Below, piece by piece: positions 28,387 through 44,580 of a DNA stretch of 63,404 nt. Source of the stretch: a gamma proteobacterium symbiont of Ctena orbiculata (GTDB lineage Bacteria; Pseudomonadota; Gammaproteobacteria; Chromatiales; Chromatiaceae); assembly GCA_003058525.1 (NCBI GenBank), contig QBVD01000026.1, forward strand, positions 1-63,404. Reading direction: 5' to 3'. The stretch's first letter is position 1. Every line of letters begins with the position of its first letter. The position numbers and the translations under genes were made by a program. The notes under the pieces are model-generated. The model did no database searches and was not told the DNA's origin. It saw only the letters and a list, made by a program, of their open reading frames with translations.

Positions 28387-28451
28387 ATAGTTGTCGCCTA
28401 TGGTTTCGATCAGAATTTGGTCTTGGACAAGATAGATTGCTTGGTGAATAG
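28387..28451 (+). promoter_or_regulatory. Regulon promoter module, copy A (porin)
   Basis: An ATAG-TTGTCGC-CTAT box (28387-28401) is followed by TTGGACAA at 28423 and TGGTGAATAG at 28442. The same elements at the same offsets (0, 36, 55) occur at 30675, 32751 and 36957. If the downstream blocks are the -35 and -10 regions, the box is centred near -65, the usual site of LysR-type activators. The porin start codon is 235 bases from the box start. Confidence 0.75.
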
Positions 28452-28621
28452 TTAAGCGCATGCGATGTCTGGGGTTGCCGGCGGAAAGTCAAAAGGAAAT
28501 GTGTTTTCTCTTCCGATGCTCCATGGGAGCCTGCAAGTAGCTCCCTCCTTAACGGTGGCACACAGGTCGATGTTGCTTGTGGTTGCCAGCCACATCCAAT
28601 CATAGTCAGAGGAGGAATTGC

Positions 28622-30085
28622 ATGTCTATTATCAAGCCTGCGTCAGGTCTATTTGCAGTCTCCATACTCATCTTTTCACAAGGCATTGGTGCGGTAGGAT
28701 TGCCGGCTGTTTCAAATGTTCATCAAGCAAAGGTGTTGCCTGAAACCGGTGAACTGTCCAGTGCCATTACGACTGGTAAACCTGATGTATGGTTGCGTTT
28801 GCGTTACGAGGAGGTGGAGGACGACATTCCCGCCGGCTCTCCACTTGCCGGTACAGAAGATGCCGACCTGTTGAGCCTGCGGGCGGCGCTTGGCTATACC
28901 TCAGCCCGTTTCCACGGCTTCTGGGCGCGGCTGGAGTTGGAACTCAATAGGCGACTGGGCAGCGATAGCGCACTAAACGTTGACGATGACCTAACCTTTC
29001 CCCCTGGCCCGGCGGGTTCGAGAATTGCCGAAGGTCATGCGCTGATACCGGATAATAATTTCGAGGAGATCAACGAGGCCTTCATCGGTTGGCGCAGTGC
29101 AACCGGTGGTTGCCCGAATGCACCTGGCGCCTGCAATGGCCACACCTCATTCAAACTGGGCCGGCAGTCGATCATTTACGATAATCACCGATGGGTGGGT
29201 AACATCGTATGGCGGCAAAATTTTCAGTCATTCGATGCATTTCGTTTTGACAACAGTTCAATCAACAACCTTACCTTTTCATATGCCTATGTTGATCGTG
29301 TAAACAGGCTGTTTGGCGATGACTCCCCGTTCAGGGAGTATGAGATGAATAACTCCCATCTCATAAATGTCGCGTATAAGTTGCCATTCGGAAAGTTGAG
29401 TGGATACGGTTATCTATTGGATTACGATGATAATTCGCGAACGCCTTTTCCTGAAGGTGTCGGTGTCGGACCCGGAATAACCAATTTCGACTCGGATACC
29501 TGGGGTTTGCGATTTACCGGGAAACATAGGCTACATGACAATTTAACCCTGTTGACGGAACTTGAGTGGGCAAATCAGGACCCGAGTGGTGATGCAGCTT
29601 CTAATCTCGATGATAACGATTACACCAATATCGAAATAGGAGGCGTTTTCGATGTGGCGGGTAAGCCGGTGGTGTTAAAGGTTGGGCAAGAGGTGCTGGA
29701 AGGAAATGGAGTCAATGCCTTGCAGACACCCCTTGCAACAGTACACGCCTTCAATGGTTGGACAGATAAATTTGTTGGCGCACCCGGAGGGTCGGCCACG
29801 CCGGCAGGGGGACTGGTGGATACCAGTGTCACCTTGGTCCTGAAAGGTTTGATGTCAAGCGTGATTGGTCCATCAAAGCTGGTTGTCCAATACCACAAAT
29901 TTGAAGCTGATAATGTTATCGGCGGAGTTGACGATTATGGCGATGAATGGGGGGTGTTGTTTGCCAAACCCTTTGATAAAAAGTGGTTGGGTCTTATCAA
30001 GTTTGCCAGTTTTGAGGATGGCGGAGATGGTTTCAGCTTTGACACCGATAAGATTTGGTTGATGGGGCAATACCGTATGAAATAG
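28622..30085 (+). CDS. Outer-membrane porin (alginate-export-like beta-barrel)
   Basis: A 487-residue exported protein. A signal peptide of about 23 residues is followed by alternating beta-strand sequence with many aromatic ends, and the chain closes with WLMGQYRMK, a beta-barrel end close to the C-terminus. Segments such as EINEAFIGWRS, FKLGRQSIIYDNHRWVGN and GWTDKF resemble the alginate-export/porin family. AGAGGAGG precedes ATG 28622. It carries promoter module A, which links it to the thiocyanate hydrolase regulon; I infer that it lets a small anion across the outer membrane. Confidence 0.75.
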   Translation: MSIIKPASGLFAVSILIFSQGIGAVGLPAVSNVHQAKVLPETGELSSAITTGKPDVWLRLRYEEVEDDIPAGSPLAGTEDADLLSLRAALGYTSARFHGFWARLELELNRRLGSDSALNVDDDLTFPPGPAGSRIAEGHALIPDNNFEEINEAFIGWRSATGGCPNAPGACNGHTSFKLGRQSIIYDNHRWVGNIVWRQNFQSFDAFRFDNSSINNLTFSYAYVDRVNRLFGDDSPFREYEMNNSHLINVAYKLPFGKLSGYGYLLDYDDNSRTPFPEGVGVGPGITNFDSDTWGLRFTGKHRLHDNLTLLTELEWANQDPSGDAASNLDDNDYTNIEIGGVFDVAGKPVVLKVGQEVLEGNGVNALQTPLATVHAFNGWTDKFVGAPGGSATPAGGLVDTSVTLVLKGLMSSVIGPSKLVVQYHKFEADNVIGGVDDYGDEWGVLFAKPFDKKWLGLIKFASFEDGGDGFSFDTDKIWLMGQYRMK

Positions 30086-30091
30086 ACAAAA

Positions 30092-30133
30092 GCGTTGTCA
30101 TCACCAACTGCTGGATGCAGTTGGTGACGCAAC
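30092..30133 (+). terminator. Strong hairpin after the porin gene
   Basis: A long stem (GCGTTG, TCACCAACTGC) pairs with (GCAGTTGGTGA, CAACGC-like end) around a TGGAT loop, seven bases after the porin stop. No T run follows, so it is either an imperfect terminator or an RNA-protecting end. Confidence 0.6.
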
Positions 30134-30674
30134 CATTTCTGATGATGGATTTCTATCGACGGTTTAGCGCCACCTTCGGCAGTTTCGCGGTCTTTGGCAT
30201 AGTAAATGCAAATAATCTCCTGGTTATCCGCCATTCTCAGCTATCTGCCCTCACCTGACCTCTTCCTCAAGGTGGGTGTTGTAAGTGAAAACCGCAAATA
30301 GACGCAAATTTAATAAGTCCGCAAATGAAGGCAGGTTTGGCTTTTTTTGACGGTCCTGTATGGAGACCTTAGGTAAGGGTTTATGTTACACCTTATACAT
30401 CTCACTATGGTCAGGTCACTGATTCAGTGGCTGGATACTGTGGGTAATCAGGGCTAAACGTTAGTGAAGCTGACCGCCCCCTGATTAATCCGCCATTTAC
30501 AGTATGGAATTACGATTATTGTCAGAAATAGCTGACTGATATTCGACTGCAAAAAGGCATATCTATTTTTACCGCTTAAGCGCCGTTGGTGCATTTCTGT
30601 AACGGATTTTCGTGATGGTGTATTTCCGTGGGATGCCAATAATGACAATGACTTGCGTAATCATGAGGCTTTCT

Positions 30675-30739
30675 ATAGCCAACTCCTATAGCGTTAATCA
30701 GATTTAGGTCTTGGACAAATAGTGATGCGTGGTAAATAG
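30675..30739 (+). promoter_or_regulatory. Regulon promoter module, copy B (cobalt permease)
   Basis: ATAG-CCAACTC-CTAT (30675-30689), TTGGACAA at 30711 and TGGTAAATAG at 30730. Spacing is identical to copies A, C and D. The box spacer CCAACTC is one base from the CCAACCC spacer of the box in front of the regulator gene. The cbiM-like start codon is 250 bases from the box start. Confidence 0.78.
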
Positions 30740-30924
30740 TTTCATTTAATGGTAGCTGTCTAGACATTATGAAAGATAGCGTCAAACCATATCGGCGCAT
30801 GGGAACGGTAATAATGACTAAGCGGCGATAACCTGAATTATTGAATGCGTATGGCAACGGGAATGGATGTTGCTAATAATCGTTTGACCAGTTGATCCAC
30901 TAAGCATGAGGAGAGGGGGTACAG

Positions 30925-31605
30925 ATGCATATTGAACCAGGCGTTGTCGAAGGCGCAAAAATAGCACTTAGCGTTGTAACGGCCGCAGGCGCGATCGGAT
31001 ATGCGGCCAAACTTGCGTTGAGTACCGTTAAGCAGGATGGTATCACTACGATTGCTATTCGCAGTGTGATCACGACTCTGCTCGTCTTTTGCTTTTTTGA
31101 GGTATTGCCGCATTATCCGGTTGGGGTGTCTGAAGTTCACTTCATCCTTGGCGCAACACTGTTTTTGATCTTTGGTGCAGGGCCTGCAGCGATAGGGTTG
31201 GCAACGGGACTGCTCATCCAAGGGCTTTTGCTGGCGCCGGCTGACTTGCCTCAATACGGTATGAATGTAACCTCTCTACTTGTACCGCTGTTGCTGGTTG
31301 ATGCCTTGGCGCGTCGTCTGATCCCGGCAAAGACCGCCTATAAAGATGTCAAGTATGGGCAGGCACTGGCTCTCTCAACCGCTTATCAGGGTGGTGTTAT
31401 CGCCTGGGTGGCATTCTGGGCATTCTACGGTAACGGTTTCGGTGCCGAGAACCTGATCCAGGTAGGGTCATTCAGTGTTGCATATTTGACGGTCATTGTA
31501 ATAGAACCGCTGCTGGACCTTGCGATTCTTGCAACTGCAAAGTCACTGCATCAACTCAAAGACAGCAAGCTATTTCACTCACGTCTCTATCGTGCAGCTG
31601 TATAA
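30925..31605 (+). CDS. CbiM-like cobalt permease, stand-alone
   Basis: A 226-residue membrane protein with about six hydrophobic segments, resembling the CbiM/NikM family of energy-coupling-factor transporters. It keeps the N-terminal MHI sequence, whose Met-His pair binds the metal in CbiM, and the central GVSEVHFILGATLFLIFGAG block. No CbiN, CbiQ or CbiO partner follows; a strong terminator does. Promoter module B ties it to the cobalt-dependent thiocyanate hydrolase, so I infer cobalt uptake for that enzyme. Nickel is an alternative. GGAGAGGGGG precedes the ATG. Confidence 0.8.
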   Translation: MHIEPGVVEGAKIALSVVTAAGAIGYAAKLALSTVKQDGITTIAIRSVITTLLVFCFFEVLPHYPVGVSEVHFILGATLFLIFGAGPAAIGLATGLLIQGLLLAPADLPQYGMNVTSLLVPLLLVDALARRLIPAKTAYKDVKYGQALALSTAYQGGVIAWVAFWAFYGNGFGAENLIQVGSFSVAYLTVIVIEPLLDLAILATAKSLHQLKDSKLFHSRLYRAAV

Positions 31606-31615
31606 CCTGTAGCAG

Positions 31616-31650
31616 TAAGAGGCCTCCTGACTGGAGGCCTCTTATTTTTG
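31616..31650 (+). terminator. Rho-independent terminator after the cobalt permease gene
   Basis: A perfect 12-base stem TAAGAGGCCTCC - TGACT - GGAGGCCTCTTA is followed by a T run. It lies 10 bases after the stop codon at 31605. Confidence 0.93.
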
Positions 31651-31699
31651 CGTGCCGGAAATCAACCTTGAGTAGTAATGTCAAGTCAGCTGTGTCGGG

Positions 31700-32533
31700 A
31701 TGAGAAACATGATGGCTGCCCGGGATCCCCACAGGTTTGTCAACGATCTTGGTGACGAGGCGGTCGAGCGCCTTATAGCCCGTTTGGAAAGTCGGGCAAA
31801 GGATAGTGTTTTTACAAGTCTCATTGATAAATACTCATCGCAGTTGATACTTACTGACCCTGCAAAGGTGTTGGAGGTTGGTTGTGGTACGGGGGCAATG
31901 ATTCGGTCTTTCGTGCGCAGTAAAGACTTCAATGGTCATGCTGTCGGCGTTGATCAAAGCGGTAGCTTCATTAATGCTGCAAAATCATTTGCCCGCTATG
32001 AGCATCTTGAGAATAGGCTGCAATTTCAGATTGGCGATGCGCATAATCTTGATTTTCCATCCGCCAGCTTCGACACCGTTATTGCCAATACCCTGATAAG
32101 CCATGTTTCCGATCCTGCACGTGTGCTGGAAGAGATGGCGAGAGTAGTATGGCCTGGCGGCATAATCGCTGTTTTTGATGGCGACTACGCTTCGCTGACC
32201 TATGCATTTCCTGACCACGATTTCGGCCGGCAAATGGATAGTGCGCTGGCAACTGCTTCGTTCAACAACCCCAGAGTCATGCGTGACTTGCCGAGAATGC
32301 TGGATACATATGATCTTCAACTTGTTAGTGCTTGGGGCGATGCGGTGGTTGAGATTGGAGAGGGAAGCTATTTCAAATCTTTTGCTGAAACCTATGCGCC
32401 TTATGTAACGAGTTCAGGGTTGATGGCCGAAGACGATGTCGATAGCTGGTTGTCTGTACAGCGTGAAGCCATGGAGTCAGGGACATTCTTTGCGTCATGT
32501 AACTATTACACATATCTTTTACGTCGCGTATAA
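31700..32533 (+). CDS. SAM-dependent methyltransferase (class I)
   Basis: A 277-residue soluble protein with a class I methyltransferase core. Motif I is LEVGCGTGAMIRSF near residue 54, an acidic motif II is GVDQSGSF, motif post-II is GDAHNLDFPSASFDTV near 114, and VWPGGIIAVFDGDY near 150 is motif III. The substrate cannot be told from sequence. It sits between two members of the thiocyanate regulon but behind a strong terminator and without the shared promoter module. The ATG at 31709 or 31712 could also be the start. Confidence 0.78.
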   Translation: MRNMMAARDPHRFVNDLGDEAVERLIARLESRAKDSVFTSLIDKYSSQLILTDPAKVLEVGCGTGAMIRSFVRSKDFNGHAVGVDQSGSFINAAKSFARYEHLENRLQFQIGDAHNLDFPSASFDTVIANTLISHVSDPARVLEEMARVVWPGGIIAVFDGDYASLTYAFPDHDFGRQMDSALATASFNNPRVMRDLPRMLDTYDLQLVSAWGDAVVEIGEGSYFKSFAETYAPYVTSSGLMAEDDVDSWLSVQREAMESGTFFASCNYYTYLLRRV

Positions 32534-32978
32534 GTTGCCACGACCGCATACTTTCTGCCGTTAATCATCACAAATCAATTGGTTATTCTTTGCTGCCTGA
32601 CAGGTAATAGGCAGTGCCTTAGTCCTTGGTTGTCTTGTGGTCGACTGTAATAGGGACATGAAAAATGATCAGATATATCTGACTGTCGTGAAGTATGTCT
32701 GAAATGGTTCCCTGCCAGGTAAGAACAAATGTCAAAACAGGAAATATACTATAGGGAAAAACTATAGATTCTATATAAATTAGCTCTTTGACAAATAGAA
32801 GTATCAGGTAAAAATTATTGTTACGGGCTATCCGTTTCTCTGTTGATTCAAGATTGTCGGGGTCCGGTTCTCATAAGTAAATTAGCATGTTATGCGGTTG
32901 TTCCTGTAACAGGAATTGCGCACAAGACAGCATGAAACATGCAGAACAATTCAGAGAAGTCAGCAAAAATAAAAAAAT
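32534..32978. other. Intergenic region upstream of the OprD-like gene
   Basis: No gene is supported. It holds regulon promoter module D at 32751 and a leader of about 160 bases of AT-rich sequence before the start codon at 32979. Confidence 0.6.
32751..32815 (+). promoter_or_regulatory. Regulon promoter module, copy D (OprD-like porin)
   Basis: ATAG-GGAAAAA-CTAT (32751-32765), TTTGACAA at 32787 and AGGTAAAAAT at 32806. It is the most diverged of four copies but keeps offsets 0, 36 and 55 exactly. TTTGACAA contains a consensus-like TTGACA -35 box. The start codon is 228 bases from the box start. Confidence 0.7.
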
Positions 32979-34322
32979 ATGAAGGTCAAAACTATACTAT
33001 CCGCTTTTTTTCTGGTATCGGATTTTATAACAATATCTGTTTTTGCTGATGAAGTGCCGGGTGTGAATGGTTATGTGAGAGTCGGTATTATCGAAACAAA
33101 GGATCAGGCAGGTGAAAGTGCGAGAGGTTCGGCGCTGGGTGGCAAGCTGGGCTATATCACGCTAGGGCCTGTTAACACTAATCCAATGCGCCCTGTTGTG
33201 TCTGAAAAAGCGCCAATCAAGGCGCGAGGAGAGAGGTTTGGTTATTCCAAATGAGCGACGAGCAACGCCGAGTGGCGCTTTTTCAGGCACAACCCGAAGG
33301 GCTGGGGCTGTTTTTGCCCCCAGCGGCGTTATCATTCGCTCATGTAGAATAACTACACTACGCTCATTCTGCCTTGCTGGGCACAAAAACAGCCCCAGCA
33401 GGGCGTATTGGATTAGTGTTAACAGGCCCTAGATTGGCGTGGCCTGAGTGCTGGCCTATCCATATACACTACACAGGAACTGGCGGATAATGAAAATGGA
33501 GATTTCTTTGCCACCGATAATAAGGGGTACACCCTGATAGGCGAAGCCTATGTAAAGGGTGCTTTGCACTATACGACACTCAAGTTGGGACGATTCGAGA
33601 TCGATACGCCTCATGCGGATACCGATGACATAAGAATGGTACCGAATACATTTCAGGGTGCGGTGATCAGCAATGAGGATATTGTTGATACTGCAGTTTC
33701 TATCGTCTTTCTGGATGAGAGGGCGGGTGTCGATGCGGATATACCGGAAAAATTTGAAGACATTAATGGTGACGACGGTTTATTTGCCTTAGGCATCGAG
33801 TACTATGGAATCGATGATGCTGCATTGCAGGCATGGTTCTATAAAGGCAGAGATCTTGCAAGCCTGATCTATGTCGAAGGCATATATGAAACAGAGCAGG
33901 TTTCCATCGGCTTTCAGTTTGGCTCGCAATCGGATGATACGATGGATGATAGCGGGCCGGACGGTGAAGTCTATGGCGTAATGGCGAGTTACACTGTGGA
34001 TGGCATTGTTTTGTCAGCTGCCTACAACGATGTCTCAGGCACTGTGATCGACGGTTTCGGCGGCGGTCCCTATTTTACATCCGCGGATGATCATACCATT
34101 GGTGAGGTTGAAGACCAGCAGGCGGTAACCTTGGGATTTGAATATGTCGGGATACAAGGATTAACCCTGGGGTTGATGTATGCGGATTTCGATAGCGGGT
34201 CAAATGAAACGGATTACTATGCCATCTATGAATCGGTTGAAGATCTTGCGTTTGAATTGATCTATACGGATCTGCATGAAGAGGGTCATTTCGTGCGCCT
34301 GATGGGCAATTACTATTTTTAG
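32979..34322 (+). pseudogene. OprD-like outer-membrane porin gene interrupted by a MITE
   Basis: The N-terminal part (32979-33165) encodes a signal peptide and mature start with GKLGYITL. The rest resumes at 33429-34322 with DWRGLSAGLSIYTTQELADN and ends in LMGNYYF, a porin-type C-terminus. ADTDDIRMVPNTFQGA is typical of the OprD/Opr porin family. A 263-base MITE with CTAG target copies lies between. Joining the flanks through one CTAG gives an uninterrupted frame of about 359 residues. The reading frame after the insertion is intact, so the event looks recent. Confidence 0.85.
33166..33428. mobile_element. MITE with long terminal inverted repeats, inserted in the OprD-like gene
   Basis: The ends GGCCTGTTAACACTAATCC and GGATTAGTGTTAACAGGCC are inverted copies extending about 28 bases with one mismatch. 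The element is flanked by CTAG on both sides (33162-33165 and 33429-33432), as for IS5-type YTAR targets; a two-base TA duplication with one more G/C pair in the ends is equally possible. Inside are several hairpins (for example GCTGGGGCTG with CCCCCAGC, and GCGCTTTTTCAG). No transposase is encoded. A decayed relative lies at 16843-17109. Confidence 0.9.
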
Positions 34323-34390
34323 CGGTTTACAAGCAGAGGTTTTCAGTAATCAGATTGCATGCTGGATTAGGGTTTTCTCGCTTTGATAAA

Positions 34391-34406
34391 GCACTCGTAC
34401 GAGTGC
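34391..34406. promoter_or_regulatory. Perfect 16-base palindrome before glcF-like gene
   Basis: GCACTCGTACGAGTGC ends 13 bases before the ATG at 34420, where a ribosome-binding site would normally start. It could be an operator or, as RNA, a hairpin that limits translation. Confidence 0.5.
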
Positions 34407-34419
34407 ATTGAATTGTCCT

Positions 34420-35721
34420 ATGCAAACTAAATTTACAGACCAGCAGTTATCAGTGCCTGCCATAGCCAGCTCGGATGTGGAATTGCGGGCCTGCCTGCAG
34501 TGTGACTACTGCACACCAAATTGTCCAACATTCAAATTGCTGGGTGATGAATACGACAGTTCGCGTGGACGTGTCTATCTGATAAAGGGGCTATTGGAGA
34601 ATGAGGATAAGCCTGACCAGAGGACGGTTGACTATATTGATCGTTGCCTTTCCTGTCTTGCCTGTATGTCCACATGCCCGTCAAGCGTCCACTATCAGCA
34701 TCTTATGGATCATGCAAGGGAGGTGATCGAACGGAAACATCACCGCAAGCCTGTGGACCGGCTTTCACGCTGGTTGTTGGCAAAGATACTACCCTATCCG
34801 CAACGCTTTCGTCTGGCGATGCGGGCGGCAAGAACGATCAAGCCTGTAGCCTCGGTGCTGCCCGGCCCGATTCGTGGCATGGTTGATTACACCCCAGACC
34901 GGCTTCCGCCACCGAGCCCGAATGATCAACCGCAAGTGTTTCCGGCACAAGGTGAGTGTATTCGACGTGTAGCATTGTTGAACGGTTGTGCGCAACAGGC
35001 TTTGAATACGGATATAAATGACGCGACTATTCGTATTCTTCGCAGGCACGGTTGCGAAGTTGTGATACCACGTGGTGCCGGCTGCTGCGGGGCATTGACG
35101 CACCATATGGGTAAGACGAATGAGAGTCTTGCGGCAGCTGCAAAAAACATACAGGCATGGATGAAAGAGCTGGAAGGCGACGGGCTGGATGCAATAGTCA
35201 TTAACACAAGTGGTTGCGGTACAGTTATCAAGGATTATGGTTTCATGTTTCGAAACGATCCTTTGGCGCAGCAGGCGGCAACTATCGCAGGTTTGGCAAA
35301 GGATGTGACTGAAGTGCTTTCAGAGATCGAATTAAACTATCTAATCAAACCTGGCCTGCGCATTTCCTATCATGCGACGTGCTCTCTGCAATTTGGTCAA
35401 AGAATAAGATTCACGCCAAGAAAGCTATTGAAATCGGCAGGTTTCACAGTACTTGAGCCAAGGGATTCACATACCTGCTGCGGTGCGGCCGGTACCTACA
35501 ATTTATTGCAACCGGAGATCTCCAGGCAGTTGAAAGAGAGCAAGCTAAAGGAGTTGGAAACAGGATCCCCTGCAGCGATCGCAGCTGGAAATGTCGGCTG
35601 TATGGTGCACCTGGCATCAAGTACAGGAATTCCTGTTGTACATACGGTGGAACTGCTCGACTGGGTGACAGGAGGGCCAGTGCCCCGATCCTTGAATGAT
35701 ATCTGTAGCGAAGCAGGTTAA
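34420..35721 (+). CDS. Glycolate oxidase iron-sulfur subunit-like (GlcF family) protein
   Basis: A 433-residue cytoplasmic or membrane-associated Fe-S protein. Two 4Fe-4S motifs are visible, CLQCDYCTPNCPTF near residue 26 and CLSCLACMSTCPSS near 76. Two cysteine-rich CCG domains follow, with GAGCCGALTHH near 220 and HTCCGAAGTYN near 350, as in GlcF and heterodisulfide-reductase subunit B/D proteins. In GlcDEF it passes electrons from glycolate oxidation to the quinone pool, but glcD and glcE are not here, so the electron donor is unknown. It lies 97 bases after the broken porin gene and has no clear ribosome-binding site. Confidence 0.82.
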   Translation: MQTKFTDQQLSVPAIASSDVELRACLQCDYCTPNCPTFKLLGDEYDSSRGRVYLIKGLLENEDKPDQRTVDYIDRCLSCLACMSTCPSSVHYQHLMDHAREVIERKHHRKPVDRLSRWLLAKILPYPQRFRLAMRAARTIKPVASVLPGPIRGMVDYTPDRLPPPSPNDQPQVFPAQGECIRRVALLNGCAQQALNTDINDATIRILRRHGCEVVIPRGAGCCGALTHHMGKTNESLAAAAKNIQAWMKELEGDGLDAIVINTSGCGTVIKDYGFMFRNDPLAQQAATIAGLAKDVTEVLSEIELNYLIKPGLRISYHATCSLQFGQRIRFTPRKLLKSAGFTVLEPRDSHTCCGAAGTYNLLQPEISRQLKESKLKELETGSPAAIAAGNVGCMVHLASSTGIPVVHTVELLDWVTGGPVPRSLNDICSEAG

Positions 35722-35803
35722 GCAGCTGCTTTGGTTTATCAATCAGGAAGTTGTTCCGGGCATTGGCAATCAGTTTGCACAGTGCGTGTATATGCGATGC
35801 TCG

Positions 35804-36772
35804 CTAATTGTGGCTGTTAGGTGTGCATACTTCTGACATCGGGCAAGGGCCGGTCCGTTTTACTGGCGTATCGTGACACCCTTCCACGCCCCATTCCGCA
35901 GCCAGTCCCTTGAACGCCAGAGAAGCAGGACTCTTGTACGAATCCTTACGGCTGATAAGCGTGATTGTGTGGTGCGGGAGTTCTGGAATCAGCATAACCG
36001 GAAATATCTCATTTTGTTGGCAGGCGATCGTGTTGGGGAGTATGGTCGCGAGCCGGCCTAATCGTAGAACCTCGATAATCGTACTTAGCGAGTTGGTCTC
36101 AATTGCAATCGAAGGTTTGATATCGTGTTCCAGGCAATACAGGTCGATGTGCCTGCGTAATGCAAAATCGCTATTGAGGAGTGCCAGCGGTTCCTGTTCA
36201 AGGGTGTGTTGATCCAAAGGAGTTTCTTGTCCGGCGTATTGGTGGGTCGATCCAACCGCCAAGTTGAGTGGTTCTATGAACAGATGTTGAGTCTCTATGT
36301 ATTCATAATTGGCGGCTACGGTAAGTGTATTCGTGAATGCTATGCCGATATCGATATTACCAGCCAGAACGCCGCTCTCAATATCATCTTGCGGCATCTC
36401 ATAAGTGCCTACGGAAATACCGGGATAACGTTTGTTGAATCGATCTATCAGTGGCGCCGCAAGATAATCCGTGATCGGTGTCATGCCAAGGCTCAGAGAT
36501 CCGCGGCTCAGGTCCTGCAGCTCCTGAATGGCCCGCTTCCCGGCATCCAGCTCACCTAGCGCTCGACGGGCATAGCTGATGTAAACCTCACCCGCATCAG
36601 TAAGGTGAACGGTACGACCTGTACGATCCAGCAGCTGTGTTTCGAGAGACTCCTCTAGTTGCTTGATTTGTTGCGACAGTGTGGGTTGAGAAACAAACAG
36701 TGTTTCTGCCGCACGGGTAAAACTGTGATGTTCTGCAACCGCCAAAAGATAGCGTAGCGAACGAGGGCACAT
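35804..36772 (-). CDS. CynR-like LysR-family transcriptional regulator
   Basis: A 322-residue LysR regulator, divergent from scnBAC. The winged helix is at residues 1-60 (SFTRAAETLFVSQPTLSQQI). The passage TGRTVHLTDAGEVYISYARR and GELDAGKRAIQEL match E. coli CynR, the cyanate-responsive activator, better than other LysR proteins I know. Frames open to 36793, but MCPRSLRYLLAVAEH at 36772 aligns with the CynR start. An ATAG-N7-CTAT box lies just upstream at 36786, suggesting autoregulation; the same box fronts four neighbouring promoters. The ligand may be thiocyanate or cyanate (inference). Confidence 0.85.
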   Translation of the reverse strand: MCPRSLRYLLAVAEHHSFTRAAETLFVSQPTLSQQIKQLEESLETQLLDRTGRTVHLTDAGEVYISYARRALGELDAGKRAIQELQDLSRGSLSLGMTPITDYLAAPLIDRFNKRYPGISVGTYEMPQDDIESGVLAGNIDIGIAFTNTLTVAANYEYIETQHLFIEPLNLAVGSTHQYAGQETPLDQHTLEQEPLALLNSDFALRRHIDLYCLEHDIKPSIAIETNSLSTIIEVLRLGRLATILPNTIACQQNEIFPVMLIPELPHHTITLISRKDSYKSPASLAFKGLAAEWGVEGCHDTPVKRTGPCPMSEVCTPNSHN

Positions 36773-36785
36773 GATATTTCTATCC

Positions 36786-36800
36786 ATAGCCAACCCCTAT
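36786..36800. promoter_or_regulatory. Operator-like ATAG-N7-CTAT box at the regulator start
   Basis: ATAG-CCAACCC-CTAT lies within the longer palindrome CCATAG-N7-CTATGG, 14 bases upstream of the regulator ATG. It is the symmetrical LysR-type box also found in the four promoter modules, here without the downstream TTGGACAA block, which fits negative autoregulation. Confidence 0.72.
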
Positions 36801-36956
36801 GGAAGTTATAAAAAAAGCGGATTTTGCTAATCACTCCATGATGAGTCCTAGTGTAGACCAATTTTAAATTTGTGGTGGGGATCAGCGAATAAATCTTTGC
36901 CTTGCGAAATTAAATTACTTTTTCCATGTAAATCAACGGGACAATTCGTGATGACC

Positions 36957-37021
36957 ATAGCCATCGCCTATAGAGCTAATCAGAATTAGGTCTTGGACAA
37001 TTATTGTGACCTGGTAAATAG
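36957..37021 (+). promoter_or_regulatory. Regulon promoter module, copy C (scnB)
   Basis: ATAG-CCATCGC-CTAT (36957-36971), TTGGACAA at 36993 and TGGTAAATAG at 37012. This is the scn operon promoter candidate, 259 bases ahead of the scnB start. The stretch ATCAGAATTAGGTCTTGGAC is almost identical to copy B. The leader between this and scnB is AT-rich with no gene. Confidence 0.8.
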
Positions 37022-37215
37022 TTTGACTTAACACGATTAGAGAATCGCGCACTTCGTGAATTATTAAGAACGACTTAAGTAAGGTGAATTTCCGCTGTGA
37101 AACAGATCATTCATCGATTGCTTAAGTATCAAAACAGTATATGCGAAATATGTAATTAAACATTAGGTAATAAATACAAGCTTTTAAAACCTAATCATAA
37201 GGAGGTCACGCGACC

Positions 37216-37647
37216 ATGTCATCAGCCATCAGACAAAAAGTGATGAAACATCTGGAGATCGTCAAACAACTCCAGCCGTCTCTACACCAGGAGACTCATG
37301 CGCCCTCTCCTGATCAGGTCGATAACGAACACTATCGGGCCTATACACGTATGTCGCATGATGTCGGTGGTGAACCGGACGTACCAATCACATGGGAAGA
37401 GAAAGAGGAAGAGGTATGGGAGCACAACACCTTCGTAACATGTGAGGTGTTGGCTTGGCGGGGTATTTGGAATGCCGAGGAGAGGCGCCGCAGGCAGAAT
37501 GTGGATGTGGGACAGACAATGTATCTGGGTTTGCCTTATTACGGCCGGTGGTTGTTGACCGCAGCAAGAATATTGGTCGACAAGCAATACATAACGCTCA
37601 CCGAATTGTCCGACAAGATTGATGAGGTCAAAAAACGCTATGAGTAA
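37216..37647 (+). CDS. scnB: Thiocyanate hydrolase beta subunit
   Basis: A 143-residue protein corresponding to the N-terminal half of nitrile hydratase beta. Thiocyanate hydrolase converts thiocyanate and water to carbonyl sulfide and ammonia. The segment SHDVGGEPDVPITWEEKEEEVW (quoted in part: DVGGEPDVPITWEEKEEE) and the helical end WLLTAARILVDKQYITLTEL resemble this family. Identification rests on this and on the scnB-scnA-scnC order known from Thiobacillus thioparus. AAGGAGG precedes the ATG. It overlaps scnA by eight bases. Confidence 0.9.
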   Translation: MSSAIRQKVMKHLEIVKQLQPSLHQETHAPSPDQVDNEHYRAYTRMSHDVGGEPDVPITWEEKEEEVWEHNTFVTCEVLAWRGIWNAEERRRRQNVDVGQTMYLGLPYYGRWLLTAARILVDKQYITLTELSDKIDEVKKRYE

Positions 37648-38008
37648 ACCACACTACGATCGAGAGCATCACGTCAAGAAGGCTACGGGTATCGGTGATC
37701 CCCAATGTTTTAAAGGCGAAGCCGGCGCGCCAAAGTTCAAGGTTGGCGACAAGGTAAGGATTCGGGATCTGCCCGATATATTTTATACCCGTACCCAGGT
37801 CTATACCCGCGGTGTACCTGCAACTGTCGCCGAACTGGTGTATGAAAGTCCCGCCCCGGAGGATGAAGCGTGGGACAACACCGACAAGGTGGTTTGGTTC
37901 TACAGTCTGGTGTTCAAGCAAAAGGATCTGTGGCCGGACTATCCGGATGCATTTGCAAATGACACTGTAGAGACCGAATTGCCTGAACGCTGGCTTGAGC
38001 CGCTGTAG
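37640..38008 (+). CDS. scnA: Thiocyanate hydrolase alpha subunit
   Basis: A 122-residue protein matching the C-terminal half of nitrile hydratase beta, an SH3-like barrel. KFKVGDKVRIRD near residue 31, HxTR-like YTRTQVYTRGVPATVAELVY and WFYSLVFKQKDLW near 90 are typical. The usual start in a longer frame at 37619 is unlikely: ATG 37640 matches the family start and overlaps the scnB end. Together with ScnB it forms the equivalent of the beta chain in the enzyme. Confidence 0.92.
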   Translation: MSKPHYDREHHVKKATGIGDPQCFKGEAGAPKFKVGDKVRIRDLPDIFYTRTQVYTRGVPATVAELVYESPAPEDEAWDNTDKVVWFYSLVFKQKDLWPDYPDAFANDTVETELPERWLEPL

Positions 38009-38069: not shown

Positions 38070-38765
38070 ATGGCGGAGAAACATAAACCTGCACCAATGG
38101 TTGATGAGGTCAGTGAATTTGAGGTGCTCGAAATCGCCGTTCGCGAACTCGCTATCGAAAAAGGCCTCTTCACCGCTGAGGACCATCAGCGTTGGACTGA
38201 ATATATGCATACACTCGGGCCGCTTCCGGCGGCACGCCTGGTTGCCAAGGCTTGGTTGGATCCGGAATTCAAGAAGCTGGCTGTAGAGGATGGGGTCAAG
38301 GCCAGCCTTGAAGTCGGAATTGACTGGGTCAACAGCATGCCGACCCATTTCGGCACACCCAGTGACTACTGCAATCTGCGTGTACTCGAAGACACGCCAA
38401 AGTTAAAACATGTGGTCGTATGTACGCTCTGTTCATGCTATCCACGTCCCATCCTCGGGCAATCGCCGGAGTGGTACCGGACACCGAACTATCGCCGACG
38501 CCTGGTGCGCTGGCCGCGACAGGTGCTCGCGGAGTTTGGGCTTCAAGTGCCCGAAGACGTAGAGGTTCGGGTAGAGGACTCGAATCAGAAATCACGATTT
38601 ATCGTGTTGCCCGTACGTCCCGAGGGAACCGAAGGGTGGAGCGAGGACCAGTTGGCAGAGATCGTGACACGGGACTGCCTGATCGGTGTGGCTGTGCCGA
38701 AGCCCGGCAAGACAGCCAATGATCCGCGACCTGTGCGTCCGGCCGTCAATCCATACCACCACTAG
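38070..38765 (+). CDS. scnC: Thiocyanate hydrolase gamma (cobalt-binding) subunit
   Basis: A 231-residue protein of the nitrile hydratase alpha family that holds the catalytic metal. The claw motif VCTLCSC is at residues 117-123, with Cys118, Cys121 and Cys123. Threonine in the CTLCSC form marks the cobalt type; the second and third cysteines are expected to be oxidised to sulfinate and sulfenate as in the T. thioparus enzyme. YRTPNYRRRLVRWPRQVL follows, as in family members. It lies 61 bases after scnA and eight before the P15K-like gene. Confidence 0.94.
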   Translation: MAEKHKPAPMVDEVSEFEVLEIAVRELAIEKGLFTAEDHQRWTEYMHTLGPLPAARLVAKAWLDPEFKKLAVEDGVKASLEVGIDWVNSMPTHFGTPSDYCNLRVLEDTPKLKHVVVCTLCSCYPRPILGQSPEWYRTPNYRRRLVRWPRQVLAEFGLQVPEDVEVRVEDSNQKSRFIVLPVRPEGTEGWSEDQLAEIVTRDCLIGVAVPKPGKTANDPRPVRPAVNPYHH

Positions 38766-38773
38766 GAAGTCCC

Positions 38774-39229
38774 ATGGCAGAGATCAATCCAAAATATTTC
38801 GAACTCGACAAAGAGATGCGCGACCGCAATCTGGATGAGTCGACGCCGGTTTCACTGCTGGAAGATGTCAAAGGCAAGGGGCGGGTCTGGGACGATCTGT
38901 GTGAGCAGTATGGTGTGGACAATCCCGATCCTCCATGGCGGATCACCCTGGAAGCCACATGCGATATGCTTGCCGGTGGTTATTGGGAAACCTTCAATGT
39001 CTGCAAGCCCAAGGAGGAACGCAATCCGGAGCAGGAACAGGAACACCTCGACGCCGTTGAAAGACGTTGGGAAGAGGATCAACTGGTCAACAAATACTAT
39101 GACGAAGTGCCTTTCCCGGAAAGACAGTTGCTGGCGCTGGCGCATACGATGATCCGGCGAGGACTGTTTAATGAGGAAGAGTTGGCGCGCCGCATGGAAG
39201 AGATCGATCGACGTTTGAACAGCGCCTGA
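38774..39229 (+). CDS. P15K-like activator for cobalt insertion into thiocyanate hydrolase
   Basis: A 151-residue protein. Its last third (FPERQLLALAHTMIRRGLFNEEELARRMEEID, quoted in part as RQLLALAHTMIRRGLF) resembles the N-terminal helical part of nitrile hydratase beta, the feature of P15K-type activators. In T. thioparus P15K, encoded downstream of scnC, is needed to load cobalt. Position eight bases after scnC and the similarity support the same role. A second copy of a hydrolase subunit is less likely. Confidence 0.8.
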   Translation: MAEINPKYFELDKEMRDRNLDESTPVSLLEDVKGKGRVWDDLCEQYGVDNPDPPWRITLEATCDMLAGGYWETFNVCKPKEERNPEQEQEHLDAVERRWEEDQLVNKYYDEVPFPERQLLALAHTMIRRGLFNEEELARRMEEIDRRLNSA

Positions 39230-39457: not shown

Positions 39458-40285
39458 ATGTCTATACGCGGAGTCCGCATTAAGATTGAAGACCTTAGCC
39501 ATCGCTATACTTCAAAAAGCCCGATCACATTCGACAAGGTCAATCTGGAAGCGAAGCATGGTGAGATCATTGTCATTATCGGGCGTTCCGGTTGCGGTAA
39601 ATCGACCTTGTTGCATATTCTTGCAGGGTTGTTGAAACCGACGGATGGCTCTGTTCGTCTTGACGATACCTTGGTGACATCGCCATCGCCGCAATGGGTC
39701 ATGATGTTCCAGGCGCCCCATCTTTTTCCCTGGATGAAGGTGTCGCAAAATGTCGGCATCGGCCTGCACTTTGCGGGTTGGGATGAGCCCAGGATGCGTG
39801 AAAGGGTTGACGATGCACTCAGCCTTGTCGATCTTCAGGACTATGCCGATAACAACGTGCAGGACCTGTCGGGTGGTCAGCAGCAACGTGTGGCGCTGGC
39901 GCGCTCACTGGTTATGGAGCCCGAACTGTTGCTTCTGGATGAACCCTTCTCGGCGCTCGACGCCTTTACCCGCGCATCTCTGCAACATGATGTTCGATCG
40001 ATCGCAAAACGCCTCGGCTTCAATGTGGTGATCGTGACCCACGATATCGACGAGGCGGTCCTGATGGCGGATCGGGCACTGATCATGGCGGGCTCTCCCG
40101 GCAAGATCTACGACGAGCTCGAAGTCAATCTCCCCGATCCACGTGAGCGGCACGACCCGAATGTGCAGGCAATGCGGACACGCCTGATGGAGGCCTTCAA
40201 ACAAGCCGCTAATGAGTACCCAAGCGCTTCCGGCAAGGATGCTGGTGACGAATCAAGTCCACACAGCGTCACGCAGCATGCCTGA
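39458..40285 (+). CDS. NitT/TauT-type ABC transporter ATP-binding protein
   Basis: A 275-residue ABC ATPase of the nitrate/sulfonate/taurine group. Walker A (GRSGCGKST) is near residue 41, the signature LSGGQQQRVALARSL near 133, and Walker B LLLLDEPFSALD follows. FQAPHLFPWMKVSQNV is the typical Q-loop region of this group. It starts an operon with a binding protein and two permeases directly downstream of the thiocyanate hydrolase genes, so I infer thiocyanate, or possibly cyanate, as substrate. Confidence 0.88.
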   Translation: MSIRGVRIKIEDLSHRYTSKSPITFDKVNLEAKHGEIIVIIGRSGCGKSTLLHILAGLLKPTDGSVRLDDTLVTSPSPQWVMMFQAPHLFPWMKVSQNVGIGLHFAGWDEPRMRERVDDALSLVDLQDYADNNVQDLSGGQQQRVALARSLVMEPELLLLDEPFSALDAFTRASLQHDVRSIAKRLGFNVVIVTHDIDEAVLMADRALIMAGSPGKIYDELEVNLPDPRERHDPNVQAMRTRLMEAFKQAANEYPSASGKDAGDESSPHSVTQHA

Positions 40286-40332
40286 CCCTGCATAAGTCGG
40301 AATATCCGATTACCTAACGGAGGATATCGAAG

Positions 40333-41625
40333 ATGAATGAGCAGAAGCAGCTTATAGATAAGTACGGTGACGGAATCAACGATCCCGATCTCGTCCTGGA
40401 ATACGATCCCCTATTCAAGAACGTGTTAGGTAGTGGCGTTGATAGGCGTGATTTTCTGAAAATGGGTAGTCTTGCGGCGATGAGCAGCCTGATTCCTTCG
40501 GCAGCGACCTTTGCCCAGGAGAAGAAATGGGATCCGGTGGTTCGTATAGGATATATTCCGATCACCGATGCTGCGGCGCTCCTGGTGGCCCATGAGTTGG
40601 GTTATTTCAAGAAAGAGGGTATCGATTCCGTTCGCCCGACCCTGATACGTGGTTGGTCACCCCTGGTGGAGGCGTTTGCCTCGCACCGATTCAACCTCAC
40701 CCACATGTTGATTCCGATTCCGATCTGGATGCGTTACAACAACAAGTATCCGTTGAAGATCACTGCCTGGGATCATACCAATGGCTCCGCAATCATCGTG
40801 CACAAGGATAGCGGTATCAATACGCCAAAGGATTTCGGCGGTAAGCAGTTTGCCGTGCCCTATTGGTATTCAATTCATAATATCGTCTCGCAAAAGATCA
40901 TGAAGGAGGCCGGTATCAAACCTGTGATACGGCCGCAAACCGCAAAACTGGCCCCTGATGAGTGTAATTTCCTGGTGCTCAATCCACCTGAGATGCCGCC
41001 GGCCCTTGCGGCCAAGTCGATTGATGGTTACTGCGTGGCCGAACCCTTCAATGCCCTGGGCGAGATCAAGGCGGGTGGAAAGGTGTTGCGCTTCACGGGT
41101 GATGTCTGGAAAGGTCATCCATGCTGTGTCGTGGTCATGCATGAGGCCGATGCGATGGATCCTGATCGTGCAGCCTGGGCTCAGGGTGTCCACAACGCGA
41201 TTATCGCTGCGCAAATCCATCTCGGAGAAAACAGAGAGGAGATGGCGCACATGCTCTCCCGTAACGGCAAGAAATATCTGCCGTTCCCGAAGAAAGTCAT
41301 CGAACGGGCAATGCTGTTCTACGACCCCGCCTACTACAGCAACCCGGTGGCGATCAAACATCCGGAATGGGGTATGAACCGAATCAATTTTCAGAGTTGG
41401 CCCTACCGTTCCGCCACTGAACTCGTCGTTTCGGATCTGAAGAGTACTGTACTCACCGGCGACGCCAGTTTCCTTGACGGGCTCTCACCGGAGCATGTGG
41501 CTGATGATCTGGTCAATTACAAATACGTGAAGAACGCCCTCGAAGCCAATCCGAAATGGAAGAATGACCCGAGCGTGCCCAAAACGGGCGACCCCTACTC
41601 CAGAGTAGAGGTGGTTAAACTGTGA
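40333..41625 (+). CDS. Tat-exported ABC transporter substrate-binding protein (NrtA/CynA-like)
   Basis: A 430-residue periplasmic binding protein of the NrtA/SsuA superfamily. A cytoplasmic-looking stretch of about 36 residues precedes a twin-arginine signal (DRRDFLKMG) and hydrophobic segment, cleaved near TFAQ. The mature part begins VRIGYIPITDAAALLVAHEL, as in nitrate, bicarbonate and cyanate binders. GGAGG lies before the ATG. Position after the scn genes suggests thiocyanate binding. It overlaps the first permease gene by four bases. Confidence 0.85.
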   Translation: MNEQKQLIDKYGDGINDPDLVLEYDPLFKNVLGSGVDRRDFLKMGSLAAMSSLIPSAATFAQEKKWDPVVRIGYIPITDAAALLVAHELGYFKKEGIDSVRPTLIRGWSPLVEAFASHRFNLTHMLIPIPIWMRYNNKYPLKITAWDHTNGSAIIVHKDSGINTPKDFGGKQFAVPYWYSIHNIVSQKIMKEAGIKPVIRPQTAKLAPDECNFLVLNPPEMPPALAAKSIDGYCVAEPFNALGEIKAGGKVLRFTGDVWKGHPCCVVVMHEADAMDPDRAAWAQGVHNAIIAAQIHLGENREEMAHMLSRNGKKYLPFPKKVIERAMLFYDPAYYSNPVAIKHPEWGMNRINFQSWPYRSATELVVSDLKSTVLTGDASFLDGLSPEHVADDLVNYKYVKNALEANPKWKNDPSVPKTGDPYSRVEVVKL

Positions 41626-42452
41626 GTGAAGATGCCGCATCTTTCAAGGTGGGCGAATCCCGACCATACCGCGTCCTGAAATCATCAGGGCGCGGCTTAT
41701 ACAACTTCTTTGGTGGGTTGGCGATCCTGTTCGTCTTCTGGTGGATTGGCGGTTATTTCATATCCATCAATCCAACCACCGAACACTTCGCGGCATTCGG
41801 GCCGATTCCCACTTTTAAGGCATTTCCCGAATTATGGTCCTCCGGCACGATTCAGAGTGCGATTGCCGCAAGTGGATATCGTTTGGGTTTGGGCCTACTG
41901 ATTGCGATAGTGATCGGTGTGCCGATCGGAATTCTGATGGGCCGAAGCAAGCGCTTCCGCGAAATAAGCAATTCACCGTTTCAGCTGTTGCGCATGATCA
42001 GTCCGTTGGCTTGGATGCCGCTTGCGGTCATTGTTTTCGCAACCTGGAATCAATCGATCATTTTTCTGATTGCAATTGCATCGGTCTGGCCAGTGGCCTT
42101 TGCCACCGCCGCAGGTCTGGCGAAAATCGATCCGGCCTGGTTCAAAGTGGCGCGCAATCTGGGCGCTACGCCCATACACATGATGACCAAAATCATTCTG
42201 CCGGCCATCAGTTTCGATGTGTTTACTGGTATCCGGCTGGCGCTGGGTGTGGCGTGGATTGTATTGGTGCCGGCGGAATATCTGGGAGTCACCTCCGGTC
42301 TCGGCTACTCAATAGAAGACGCCAGGGAAACATTGTCATACCACCACCTTACAGCCATCGTGCTGGTGATCGGTGCTCTCGGTTACATCCTCGACAGTAC
42401 CTGTGTGTTACTGATCAAACATTTCAGTTGGCACCGTGGAGATGAATCGTGA
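41622..42452 (+). CDS. ABC transporter permease 1 (NitT/TauT type)
   Basis: A 276-residue inner-membrane permease with about six helices. The EAA loop is NLGATPIHMMTKIILPA near residue 187. It starts at GTG in a GTGA overlap with the binding-protein gene. The next gene encodes a near-duplicate permease, so the two may form a heterodimer, or one may be redundant. Confidence 0.88.
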   Translation: MSEDAASFKVGESRPYRVLKSSGRGLYNFFGGLAILFVFWWIGGYFISINPTTEHFAAFGPIPTFKAFPELWSSGTIQSAIAASGYRLGLGLLIAIVIGVPIGILMGRSKRFREISNSPFQLLRMISPLAWMPLAVIVFATWNQSIIFLIAIASVWPVAFATAAGLAKIDPAWFKVARNLGATPIHMMTKIILPAISFDVFTGIRLALGVAWIVLVPAEYLGVTSGLGYSIEDARETLSYHHLTAIVLVIGALGYILDSTCVLLIKHFSWHRGDES

Positions 42453-42510
42453 GCCATCAAAGCAAGGAGATAAAAAAAGCGTGTTCACCCGTTGGAGAGG
42501 TTTTTAAGCA

Positions 42511-43359
42511 ATGAGTAATGATACCGCACCTGCCGGGTTGAATATCATCAACAGCATGATGGGTGCAAACGCATCGCAACGCCTATTAAAATCGTCCTGG
42601 CGGGGATTGTTGAATTTCATTGGCGGGCTCGCGATCCTGTTTGTGGTCTGGTGGATTGGCATCTACCTGATATCTTCAAATTCATCTACTGAACATTTCG
42701 CTGACTTTGGGCCGATACCTGCAATTCAGGCGATCCCCATATTATGGGAAGAGAACACGATACAGAGTGCGATTACATCCAGCGGCTACCGTTTGGGTAG
42801 TGGATTGTTGATTGCCATATGCATCGGGGTGCCCATCGGCATTTTGATGGGACGCAGTAAGCGGTTCCGTGAATTGAGCAACTCACCCTTTCAGTTGCTG
42901 CGCATGATCAGTCCTCTCTCTTGGGAACCCATCGCGGTTATAGTTTTCGCAACATGGAATCAGGCGATCATATTCCTGATAGCCATTGCATCGGTTTGGC
43001 CTATTGCGTTTGCAACCGCAGCCGGTCTGGCCAAGGTCGATCCTGCCTGGTTTAAGGTGGCGCGAAATCTTGGCGCCAAACCCTGGCATATCGTGACACA
43101 GATTATCATACCGGCGATTACATTCGATGTGCTTACAGGTGTACGTCTTGCGCTCGGTGTGGCATGGATCGTTCTCGTTCCTGCAGAATTCCTTGGTGTT
43201 ACTTCCGGTCTTGGCTACTCGATTCAAGATGCGCGTGAGGGTCTTTCGTACGACCATCTCATGGCGTGGGTGCTTATCATAGGTGCTATCGGTTACATCC
43301 TAGATAGCTCCTGTGTGATGCTAATCAAGCGCTTCAGTTGGCATCGTGGAGATCAGTGA
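42511..43359 (+). CDS. ABC transporter permease 2, near-duplicate of permease 1
   Basis: A 282-residue permease very similar to the previous gene along its whole length. Both share GVPIGILMGRSKRFRE, NSPFQLLRMISPL, and VAWIVLVPAE followed by LGVTSGLGYSI. The N-termini differ: this one has about 12 extra residues. Conserved protein with divergent third codon positions argues for an old duplication kept by selection rather than a recent copy. Confidence 0.88.
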   Translation: MSNDTAPAGLNIINSMMGANASQRLLKSSWRGLLNFIGGLAILFVVWWIGIYLISSNSSTEHFADFGPIPAIQAIPILWEENTIQSAITSSGYRLGSGLLIAICIGVPIGILMGRSKRFRELSNSPFQLLRMISPLSWEPIAVIVFATWNQAIIFLIAIASVWPIAFATAAGLAKVDPAWFKVARNLGAKPWHIVTQIIIPAITFDVLTGVRLALGVAWIVLVPAEFLGVTSGLGYSIQDAREGLSYDHLMAWVLIIGAIGYILDSSCVMLIKRFSWHRGDQ

Positions 43360-43795: not shown

Positions 43796-44188
43796 ATGTC
43801 ACAGAATTATCACATCGTTTGCTTGACTGGAACACGCGAAAAGTTACAGATGGCTGCAATGTTCGCATCGGTGGCGGCTGCCACGGGTGATCAGGTTACT
43901 GTCTTTTTTTCAATGAATGCATTGCCCTTCTTTATCAAGAATTCGGTACAGGATCCACCGGTGGAAGGCCGGTTTGGTGAATTGATGAATAACGAAGTGG
44001 GTGTGCCGCCGTTCAAGCAATTGTTTAAAAGTGCGGCGGAATTGGGCGATGCCAAGCTTTTGCCCTGTTCCATGGCCCTTGATCTGTTGAAGATTACCAA
44101 AGAGGCTCTTGATCCCGAGTTTGGTCCGCCGACAGGGCTGACCCGCTTTCTTAACGATGCGGAAGGCGGGCAGCTGCTCACATTTTGA
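43796..44188 (+). CDS. DsrE-family sulfur-handling protein
   Basis: A 130-residue protein of the DsrE/DsrF-like group (the type often called DsrE2). The N-terminal IVCLTGTREKLQMAAMFASV and TVFFSMNALPFF segments and a single cysteine region LLPCSMALDLL near residue 94 fit. In sulfur oxidisers such proteins pass sulfane sulfur together with TusA. It precedes tusA by 42 bases. Confidence 0.83.
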   Translation: MSQNYHIVCLTGTREKLQMAAMFASVAAATGDQVTVFFSMNALPFFIKNSVQDPPVEGRFGELMNNEVGVPPFKQLFKSAAELGDAKLLPCSMALDLLKITKEALDPEFGPPTGLTRFLNDAEGGQLLTF

Positions 44189-44230
44189 TTCGATAGCGGC
44201 TCAAACTATTTCAGCAAGAGGATATTGTGA

Positions 44231-44461
44231 ATGAGTGAATTTAAAACCATCGATGCTCGAGACACTTTTTGTCCCGGGCCGCTAATGGAGCTTATTACCT
44301 ATATGAAGCAGGCGGCAGTGGGCGATACCCTCGAACTGTTATCGACCGATAATGGAACGGCATCCGATGTTCCCGAGTGGATCGACAAGGTCGGACACGA
44401 AATGATCAGTAGTGAGAAGGTCGGGGAGGTCTGGCACCTGAAGGTTCGCAAGCTCAAATAG
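44231..44461 (+). CDS. tusA: TusA-family sulfurtransferase
   Basis: A 76-residue single-domain sulfur carrier. The CPxP motif is present as FCPGPL with Cys14, and the two-layer fold shows in the DTLELLSTDNGTASDVPEW segment. TusA carries persulfide sulfur to oxidation or biosynthesis. Its neighbours dsrE-like and SQR-like point to sulfur oxidation rather than tRNA thiolation. Confidence 0.9.
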   Translation: MSEFKTIDARDTFCPGPLMELITYMKQAAVGDTLELLSTDNGTASDVPEWIDKVGHEMISSEKVGEVWHLKVRKLK

Positions 44462-44580
44462 CGGTAGGTGAAGAGGAGTGGATTGGTTACTTGTTAATCA
44501 ACGGCTCAGCTGGTTTAACAAATGAGATTTGTCTGACCAAGGGTCAGAGATCTCCTGTAATAGTGGATTAGGAGAGTGCA

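Follow-up and report, generated by a model that had tools for sequence, protein, structure and literature searches.

The window analysed here covers positions 1 to 63,404 of contig QBVD01000026.1 (contig C33 of the 4.74-Mb genome G000), which comes from a lucinid-clam symbiont of the genus Candidatus Thiodiazotropha. The region from about 28 to 46 kb formed a thiocyanate hydrolase island, in which a cynR-like gene for a LysR regulator (35804-36775, minus strand) was divergent from scnB (37216-37647), scnA (37640-38008) and scnC (38070-38765), all on the plus strand. The regulator scored 370.1 bits with the CynR equivalog model NF008416 (cut-off 277), and its best match in the PDB was CynR (2hxr/3hfu, 4.9e-40). 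The enzyme was identified as a thiocyanate hydrolase by the ScnC equivalog of the gamma subunit (TIGR03887, 393 bits, cut-off 291) together with the two NHase_beta halves on separate genes (NHase_beta_N on ScnB and NHase_beta_C on ScnA). ScnC carried the motif VCTLCSC, which we take to be of the cobalt type. Copies of one promoter module preceded scnB and three other predicted transcription units, all on the plus strand. These began with porinA (28622-30085), encoding a 487-aa outer-membrane porin whose Alginate_exp-like score of 23.5 bits lay under the Pfam cut-off of 25.2; with a cbiM-like metal permease gene (30925-31605; PF01891, 63.1 bits, cut-off 23.1); and with an OprD-like porin gene (32979-34322) followed by a gene for a GlcF-like Fe-S/CCG protein (34408-35721; NF008434, 409 bits, cut-off 333). 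A first-pass annotation made from the letters alone had named a porin, a CbiM-like permease, an OprD-like porin and scnB as the targets. All four were found in place, but a strongly palindromic insert interrupted the OprD-like gene at about 33162-33432, so that the intact gene behind the third module was the glcF-like one. The two arms of this insert (33162-33295 and 33299-33432) were 70% complementary, and it also contained inner hairpins. In the relatives L074 and L075, a 382-aa open frame stood behind the module at the oprD place.

The box ATAG-N7-CTAT occurred eight times in the window against 0.49 expected, and none of 100 shuffles reached eight; the 61 occurrences in the genome correspond to a density that predicts 0.8 for the window. 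The boxes at 28387, 30675, 32751 and 36957 were followed in every case by downstream blocks at offsets 36 and 55, and direct search and alignment confirmed the identical offsets of 0, 36 and 55 proposed earlier. The TTTGACAA and AGGTAAAAAT variants were confined, among the four modules, to the 32751 copy. In a gap-free alignment, 31 of 69 columns were invariant, and the 23 invariant columns outside the box gave P = 8e-24 or 2e-19 under two independent-column models. The segment between the box and TTGGACAA was conserved too, with AATCAGAWTTAGGTC in three of the four copies; this middle block, missed in the earlier description that had correctly recognised the other three, is by its sequence a second CynR site (IR2). 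A fifth box had been placed before the CynR-like gene and was found there at 36786-36800, from which the likely cynR start (36775) is 11-25 nt away. It contained the first repeat (IR1) only, had no -35 or -10 blocks, and is probably an autoregulatory site. The remaining three matches (11964, 18972 and 33537) were without the downstream blocks.

The module was laid out with IR1 at offsets 0-14, IR2 at 22-36, the -35 element TGGACA at 37-42 and the -10 element AATAGT at 60-65. The spacer between TGGACA and AATAGT was 17 bp, and the start predicted from the -10 element, near offset 72, would put the centre of the box at about -65. The overall layout suggested before therefore stood, with lower blocks as -35 and -10 and the box near -65. 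The conservation of CATAGT at the corresponding offsets of Thiobacillus-type loci led us, however, to move the -10 element from TGGTRAATAG to AATAGT. CATAGT was not kept at these offsets in other gammaproteobacterial loci, where TAGACT one base earlier may be the -10 element. A sigma-54 reading of TTGGACAA was rejected by eye, as no conserved element was seen 12 bp on across the four copies. Module 1 (28387-28453, before porinA) had IR1 at 28387-28401, IR2 at 28409-28423, the -35 element at 28424-28429 and the -10 element at 28447-28452. Module 2 (30675-30740) preceded cbiM, and module 3 (32751-32817), the most diverged copy, preceded the broken oprD and the glcF-like gene. Module 4 (36957-37022), before scnB, had IR1 at 36957-36971, IR2 at 36979-36993, TGGACA at 36994-36999 and AATAGT at 37017-37022, with a predicted start near 37029. 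All four lay on the same strand as the following gene, whose start codon came 156-187 nt after the predicted transcription start. The predicted leaders (28459-28622, 30747-30925, 32823-32979 and 37029-37216) were long and similar in length, and an Rfam scan of the window at gathering thresholds gave no match, in these leaders or elsewhere.

The specificity of the module was examined with two models, R1, built from the four modules of the window, and R2, derived from 48 scnB promoters that all came from outside Thiodiazotropha. R1 found only the four modules in the own genome at E<=10 (150 of 780 candidates scored). The top five R2 matches in the same genome (150 of 794 candidates scored) were the promoters of scnB (4.0e-12), cbiM (6.5e-11) and porinA (2.5e-9), the cynR box (0.0022) and the oprD promoter (0.123; 0.0017 when only the window was searched), and the next match was at 1.2. 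Over 22 genomes of the genus, R1 gave matches below 1e-5 in 11, and the best match in the other 11 had an E of 0.0265. The same 11 genomes held ScnB and the cynR orthologue (E<=1e-60; in one draft the gene was split over contigs). All 11 genus genomes with scn thus had the module and cynR as well, and a convincing module was found in none of the 11 without scn. One half of the 22 genomes had this block and the other half lacked it, which points to patchy gain or loss in these clam symbionts. At E<=0.05, R2 had no match in 30 scn-less genomes of the genus and family, none of which was among the 18 ScnB-positive genomes in the 210 of the order that were searched. Twelve other scn genomes gave 35 matches at this threshold; 32 were no farther than about 15 kb from scnB, and the other three lay elsewhere. 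One R2 match in Thiobacillus thioparus lay on another contig (L191, E 1.4e-5) and had no clear target. A weaker site in that genome (L193, near 6063, E 0.0045) preceded an apparent TonB-dependent receptor gene, which may be one more outer-membrane component of the regulon. The first-pass annotation had held that its proposal would fail if the module were widespread before unrelated genes. The motif search over the genome and relatives gave the opposite picture: four R1 matches in the own genome, the five boxes ranked first by R2, no R2 match at E<=0.05 in the 30 scn-less genomes, and targets that were mainly cobalt/nickel permeases, porins, cyanase and GlcF-like proteins.

Within Thiodiazotropha, the promoters of cbiM (eight sequences) and scnB (nine) had identities of 0.89-1.00 in the box, IR2, -35 and -10 elements against 0.35-0.52 in the flanks, the latter understated by the ungapped anchoring that was used. 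The porinA (four sequences) and oprD (six) copies were less conserved, with box identities of 0.73 and 0.69. These data bear on an explanation of the four copies as a dispersed repeat or recent duplication with no regulatory role. The copies are alike also in parts of the spacer between the -35 and -10 elements, in some relatives the cynR box is accompanied by another, partial module, and the copies probably did arise by duplication. Nevertheless, we rejected this explanation as very improbable: R1 matched only four times genome-wide among the 150 candidates scored, always on the strand of the next gene and at the narrow distance of predicted start to start codon given above; orthologous copies were conserved across species while their flanks diverged; and other genera carried the module before the same kinds of genes.

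The modules are best understood as promoters with a CynR-type operator. The intergenic region between cynR and cynT of Escherichia coli K-12 aligned in register with the module, and R2 matched it at the start of IR1 (9.8 bits, E 0.059 in 66 kb searched). The available text on the E. coli system describes three 15-bp ATAA-n7-TTAT repeats centred at -66, -44 and -34 from the cynTSX start, with negative autoregulation by CynR and cyanate-dependent activation (PMC5002191). The link of the modules to a CynR/LysR protein was supported both by this published layout and by the landing of R2 on the operator. In the window, as in E. coli, a 15-bp repeat (ATAR-n7-YTAT) near -65 was followed by a second one centred 22 bp on, the regulator gene was divergent from the enzyme operon, and IR1 lay shortly before the cynR start (10-24 nt in E. 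coli). The window regulator was 45% identical to E. coli CynR over 289 aa. The second repeat, ATCAGAATTAGGTCT in the window and ATCATAAATGAGACT in E. coli, was equal at 10 of 15 positions, while the box differed in its inner base (ATAG-CTAT in the window, ATAA-TTAT in E. coli); no counterpart of the E. coli IR3 was identified in the window module. The targets differed as well. The divergent operon was scnBAC rather than an E. coli-type cyn operon with carbonic anhydrase and cyanase, the cyanase gene lay on another contig, and several separate promoters served a metal permease and porins.

Binding to T-N11-A boxes near -65 is widespread among LysR proteins, and the modules might be real promoters that are bound by another LysR protein, or that answer to sulfur or nitrogen status, with the adjoining cynR-like gene incidental. 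We regard this as improbable. The layout equals that of the CynR operator in E. coli; in each of the 22 genus genomes, strong modules, cynR and scn were found either all together or not at all; and the box stood at one fixed place before 60 of 69 cynR genes in a wider sample of scn loci. That sample consisted of the best 80 of 299 loci found with ScnB relatives, most of them from assembled metagenome genomes. The pattern ATA[AG]N7[CT]TAT was counted within 350 bp upstream of each gene, leaving out rows without 200 bp of upstream sequence or without a match to the first 15 residues (three scnB, 22 glcF, six porinA, three cynR and no cbiM). By this count, 65 of 77 scnB genes, 64 of 69 cynR genes and 20 of 25 cbiM genes had the box; in smaller sets it preceded porinA in 5/8, the glcF-like gene in 6/14 and gatB in 2/3, there inside the preceding gene. 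Control genes rarely or never had it (scnC 0/79, scnA 0/87, sbp 0/65, mtase 0/34, sqr 0/50, abcA 1/64 and dsrE 2/58), and a mirror-image pattern was found at only 2/77 scnB and 3/69 cynR genes. Four of the five cbiM genes without the box in this span (L082, L083, L084 and L146) had an R2 module further up, at the divergent cynR start, and the fifth (L107), a 30% relative, followed a DUF4198 gene that itself had a module. A single box was common to cynR and scnB in several other genera, and in L073, L074, L075 and L078 the cynR box retained remnants of the downstream blocks; together these suggest that duplication of a single ancestral operator gave rise to the modules of Thiodiazotropha.

The content of the putative regulon was followed through the 165 R2 matches in the 80 loci. 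After the boxes at Thiodiazotropha cynR starts and the principal scnB promoters had been set aside, 79 were hand-picked, and 76 of these were followed within 800 bp by the start of an open frame no shorter than 110 aa. Metal permeases and pores made up a large part of the 76 genes (cbiM 22, HupE/UreJ 5, CbtA 2, NicO 1, porinA 9, oprD 2), and porinA homologues stood behind the module in other genera too. Enzymes and other transporters were GlcF-like proteins (14), cyanases (4) and formate/nitrite-type transporters (4). The rest were six scnB-like genes (two true scnB and four second nitrile-hydratase-like genes), one DUF4198 protein, one methyltransferase, one alpha/beta hydrolase, one protein at the P15K place and three unrecognised genes. 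One representative each of HupE_UreJ, CbtA, NicO, Cyanate_lyase and Form_Nir_trans was confirmed with Pfam, and the NicO and CbtA frames began 430-504 nt past the module, farther than most. Selection of the loci by their nearness to scnB biased the gene pool; the absence of any box upstream of scnC, scnA and similar genes serves as an internal control for this bias. The glcF-like gene was preceded by the module also in L071, L076 and L077, where no oprD match was found, and in Thiobacillus-type loci, where the module stood directly before a GlcF-like gene of 34-39% identity. The third target is thus probably oprD plus glcF, though not in every species. The formate/nitrite-transporter-family genes behind the module (L115 2000, L121 2236, L122 7049 and L126 5587) are candidates for a thiocyanate or cyanate channel, and a second NHase-beta-like gene was present in three of these four loci. 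Such second genes, 52-57% identical to ScnB, lay near scn with their own R2 match at L094 5666, L115 7990, L119 816 and L121 8111.

We consider it likely, from the sequence comparisons above, that thiocyanate hydrolase, metal uptake and entry across the outer membrane are induced together by a CynR-family LysR activator of the module promoters. In the mechanism that we infer, the regulator encoded at 35804-36775 would hold the ATAG-N7-CTAT box (IR1, near -65). Its effector would most likely be thiocyanate, a linear analogue of cyanate. The effector-bound regulator would also take the degenerate second repeat ATCAGAATTAGGTCT (IR2, near -43) against the -35 element and recruit RNA polymerase to the weak TGGACA-17-AATAGT promoter. 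The thiocyanate hydrolase operon, the CbiM-like cobalt/nickel permease, the porin and the glcF-like unit would be induced together, and the fifth box just before cynR would mediate autorepression.

The regulator may instead sense cyanate as in E. coli, so that scn would be induced only via cyanate or as part of a general cyanate or nitrogen response. Cyanase stood behind the same module in four loci, the window protein passed the CynR equivalog cut-off, and the own genome has a cyanase. The second pseudohalide cluster to which this cyanase belongs (G000:C19; L159 6400-11889) contained ABC (ATP-binding cassette) permease and ATPase genes, a CobW-like GTPase and a WD-repeat protein, all read from sequence, with the cyanase and a second CbiM. 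No R2 match was found in it. The regulon of this genome therefore holds scn and apparently not cyanase, which makes thiocyanate the likelier signal here. Moreover, in the available text of one study, thiocyanate treatment induced E. coli cynT, with cyanate contamination left open by its authors (PMC12096828). We thus judge a purely cyanate-driven response to be a real but rather unlikely alternative to thiocyanate sensing. Cobalt as the metal is suggested by the enzyme and permease families; thiocyanate hydrolase is described as cobalt-containing (PMC6504805, available text). CbiM scored far under the cut-offs of the NCBIfam cobalt-CbiM models (29.7/200, 30.1/173 and 26.5/172 bits), so its cobalt specificity is putative, and nickel or another role is possible, given these low scores and the paralogue beside the cyanase.

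Several observations weigh against a single circuit of this kind. The boxes and linkers of modules 1 and 3 had lower identities of 0.40-0.73, module 3 was weak under R2 (0.12 in the genome), the whole-genome searches scored at most 150 first-look candidates per genome, and the ungapped anchoring deepened the apparent divergence of the promoter flanks. The loose pattern before gatB in two of three loci indicates that the box alone is no proof. Twelve of the 77 scnB genes had no strict box within 350 bp, and some strict-box matches before scnB (e.g. L134) look like chance. In the purple sulfur bacteria L140, L142, L144 and L146, the R2 E value at scnB was 0.016 at best, and the sole R2 match at E<=0.05 in the L144 genome preceded a GlcF-like gene. 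A distant group (L127, L129, L130, L131 and L133) had neither a box there nor a cynR homologue in the sequence examined upstream of scnB, which was less than 4 kb long in L129 and L131. Neither oprD nor a module was found before the glcF-like gene in L072 and L078, so this gene is not always in the regulon. The CbiM paralogue beside a cyanase without an R2 match implies that CbiM is not associated with the cobalt enzyme alone, and the contamination caveat attached to the cynT experiment weakens the case for thiocyanate as the effector.

The other genes of the island all lay on the plus strand. An S-adenosylmethionine (SAM) methyltransferase gene (31700-32533), a conserved scn neighbour in many loci, is probably part of the cbiM transcript. 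The 151-aa protein after scnC (38774-39229) had no family match in protein-family profile searches and stands at what is presumably the place of the P15K activator. It was followed by genes for an ABC transporter (39458-43359; ATPase, substrate-binding protein and two permeases), whose synteny was conserved, and by DsrE-like and sulfide:quinone-oxidoreductase-like genes (43796-45714), the roles of both groups being read from sequence.

On balance, we lean towards the view that a putative CynR-family clade, found in beta- and gammaproteobacteria and, by genome names, some alphaproteobacteria, became the thiocyanate sensor of a regulon in which substrate entry and metal supply are linked to a cobalt enzyme, and that the metal slot was refilled repeatedly by unrelated cobalt/nickel permeases (CbiM, HupE/UreJ, CbtA and NicO) under the same operator. 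One operator would then have captured non-homologous transporters for the same need. The module provides a DNA probe for how thiocyanate hydrolase is switched on, points to a regulator, predicts an effector and lists the genes that would be co-induced, including a metal importer needed by the cobalt enzyme. Thiocyanate may be a source of nitrogen, sulfur and energy in 11 of the 22 symbiont-genus genomes examined, and a shared thiocyanate-sensing control circuit is indicated in sulfur-oxidising bacteria, clam symbionts included. Transcription of thiocyanate hydrolase in a Thiodiazotropha symbiont is recorded in the available text of PMC11171427.

To the first-pass annotation, the circuit was not known to have been described. 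In the literature searched (titles, abstracts and parts of texts, with subscription papers largely outside), we found no earlier description of how thiocyanate hydrolase is switched on, of its control by a LysR or CynR protein, or of an operator shared with metal uptake. The parts do have precedents, in CynR operators and in the cobalt permease and cyanase beside scn (PMC5328954); the kind of regulator and the kind of operator are known and the regulon is new. The island of T. thioparus (L082) is the closest relative in content, since it holds the scn operon, ABC transporter, DsrE, sulfide:quinone oxidoreductase, CbiM-type permease, methyltransferase and cynR together, with the module found both ahead of scnB and where cynR adjoins cbiM. 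The published account, as far as its text was available, describes a cyanase, a methylase and a single subunit of a cobalt permease as lying upstream of scn and mentions no scn regulator (PMC5328954). The window differs in that its cyanase lies elsewhere and its cbiM and porins have promoters of their own. Thiocyanate dehydrogenase clusters of Thioalkalivibrio and Thiohalobacter, described in the available texts as having sigma-54 control and copper supply (PMC5328954, PMC6504805), resemble the window in that a regulator and a metal supply stand beside the thiocyanate-degrading enzyme, although the enzyme, the metal and the class of regulator are different.

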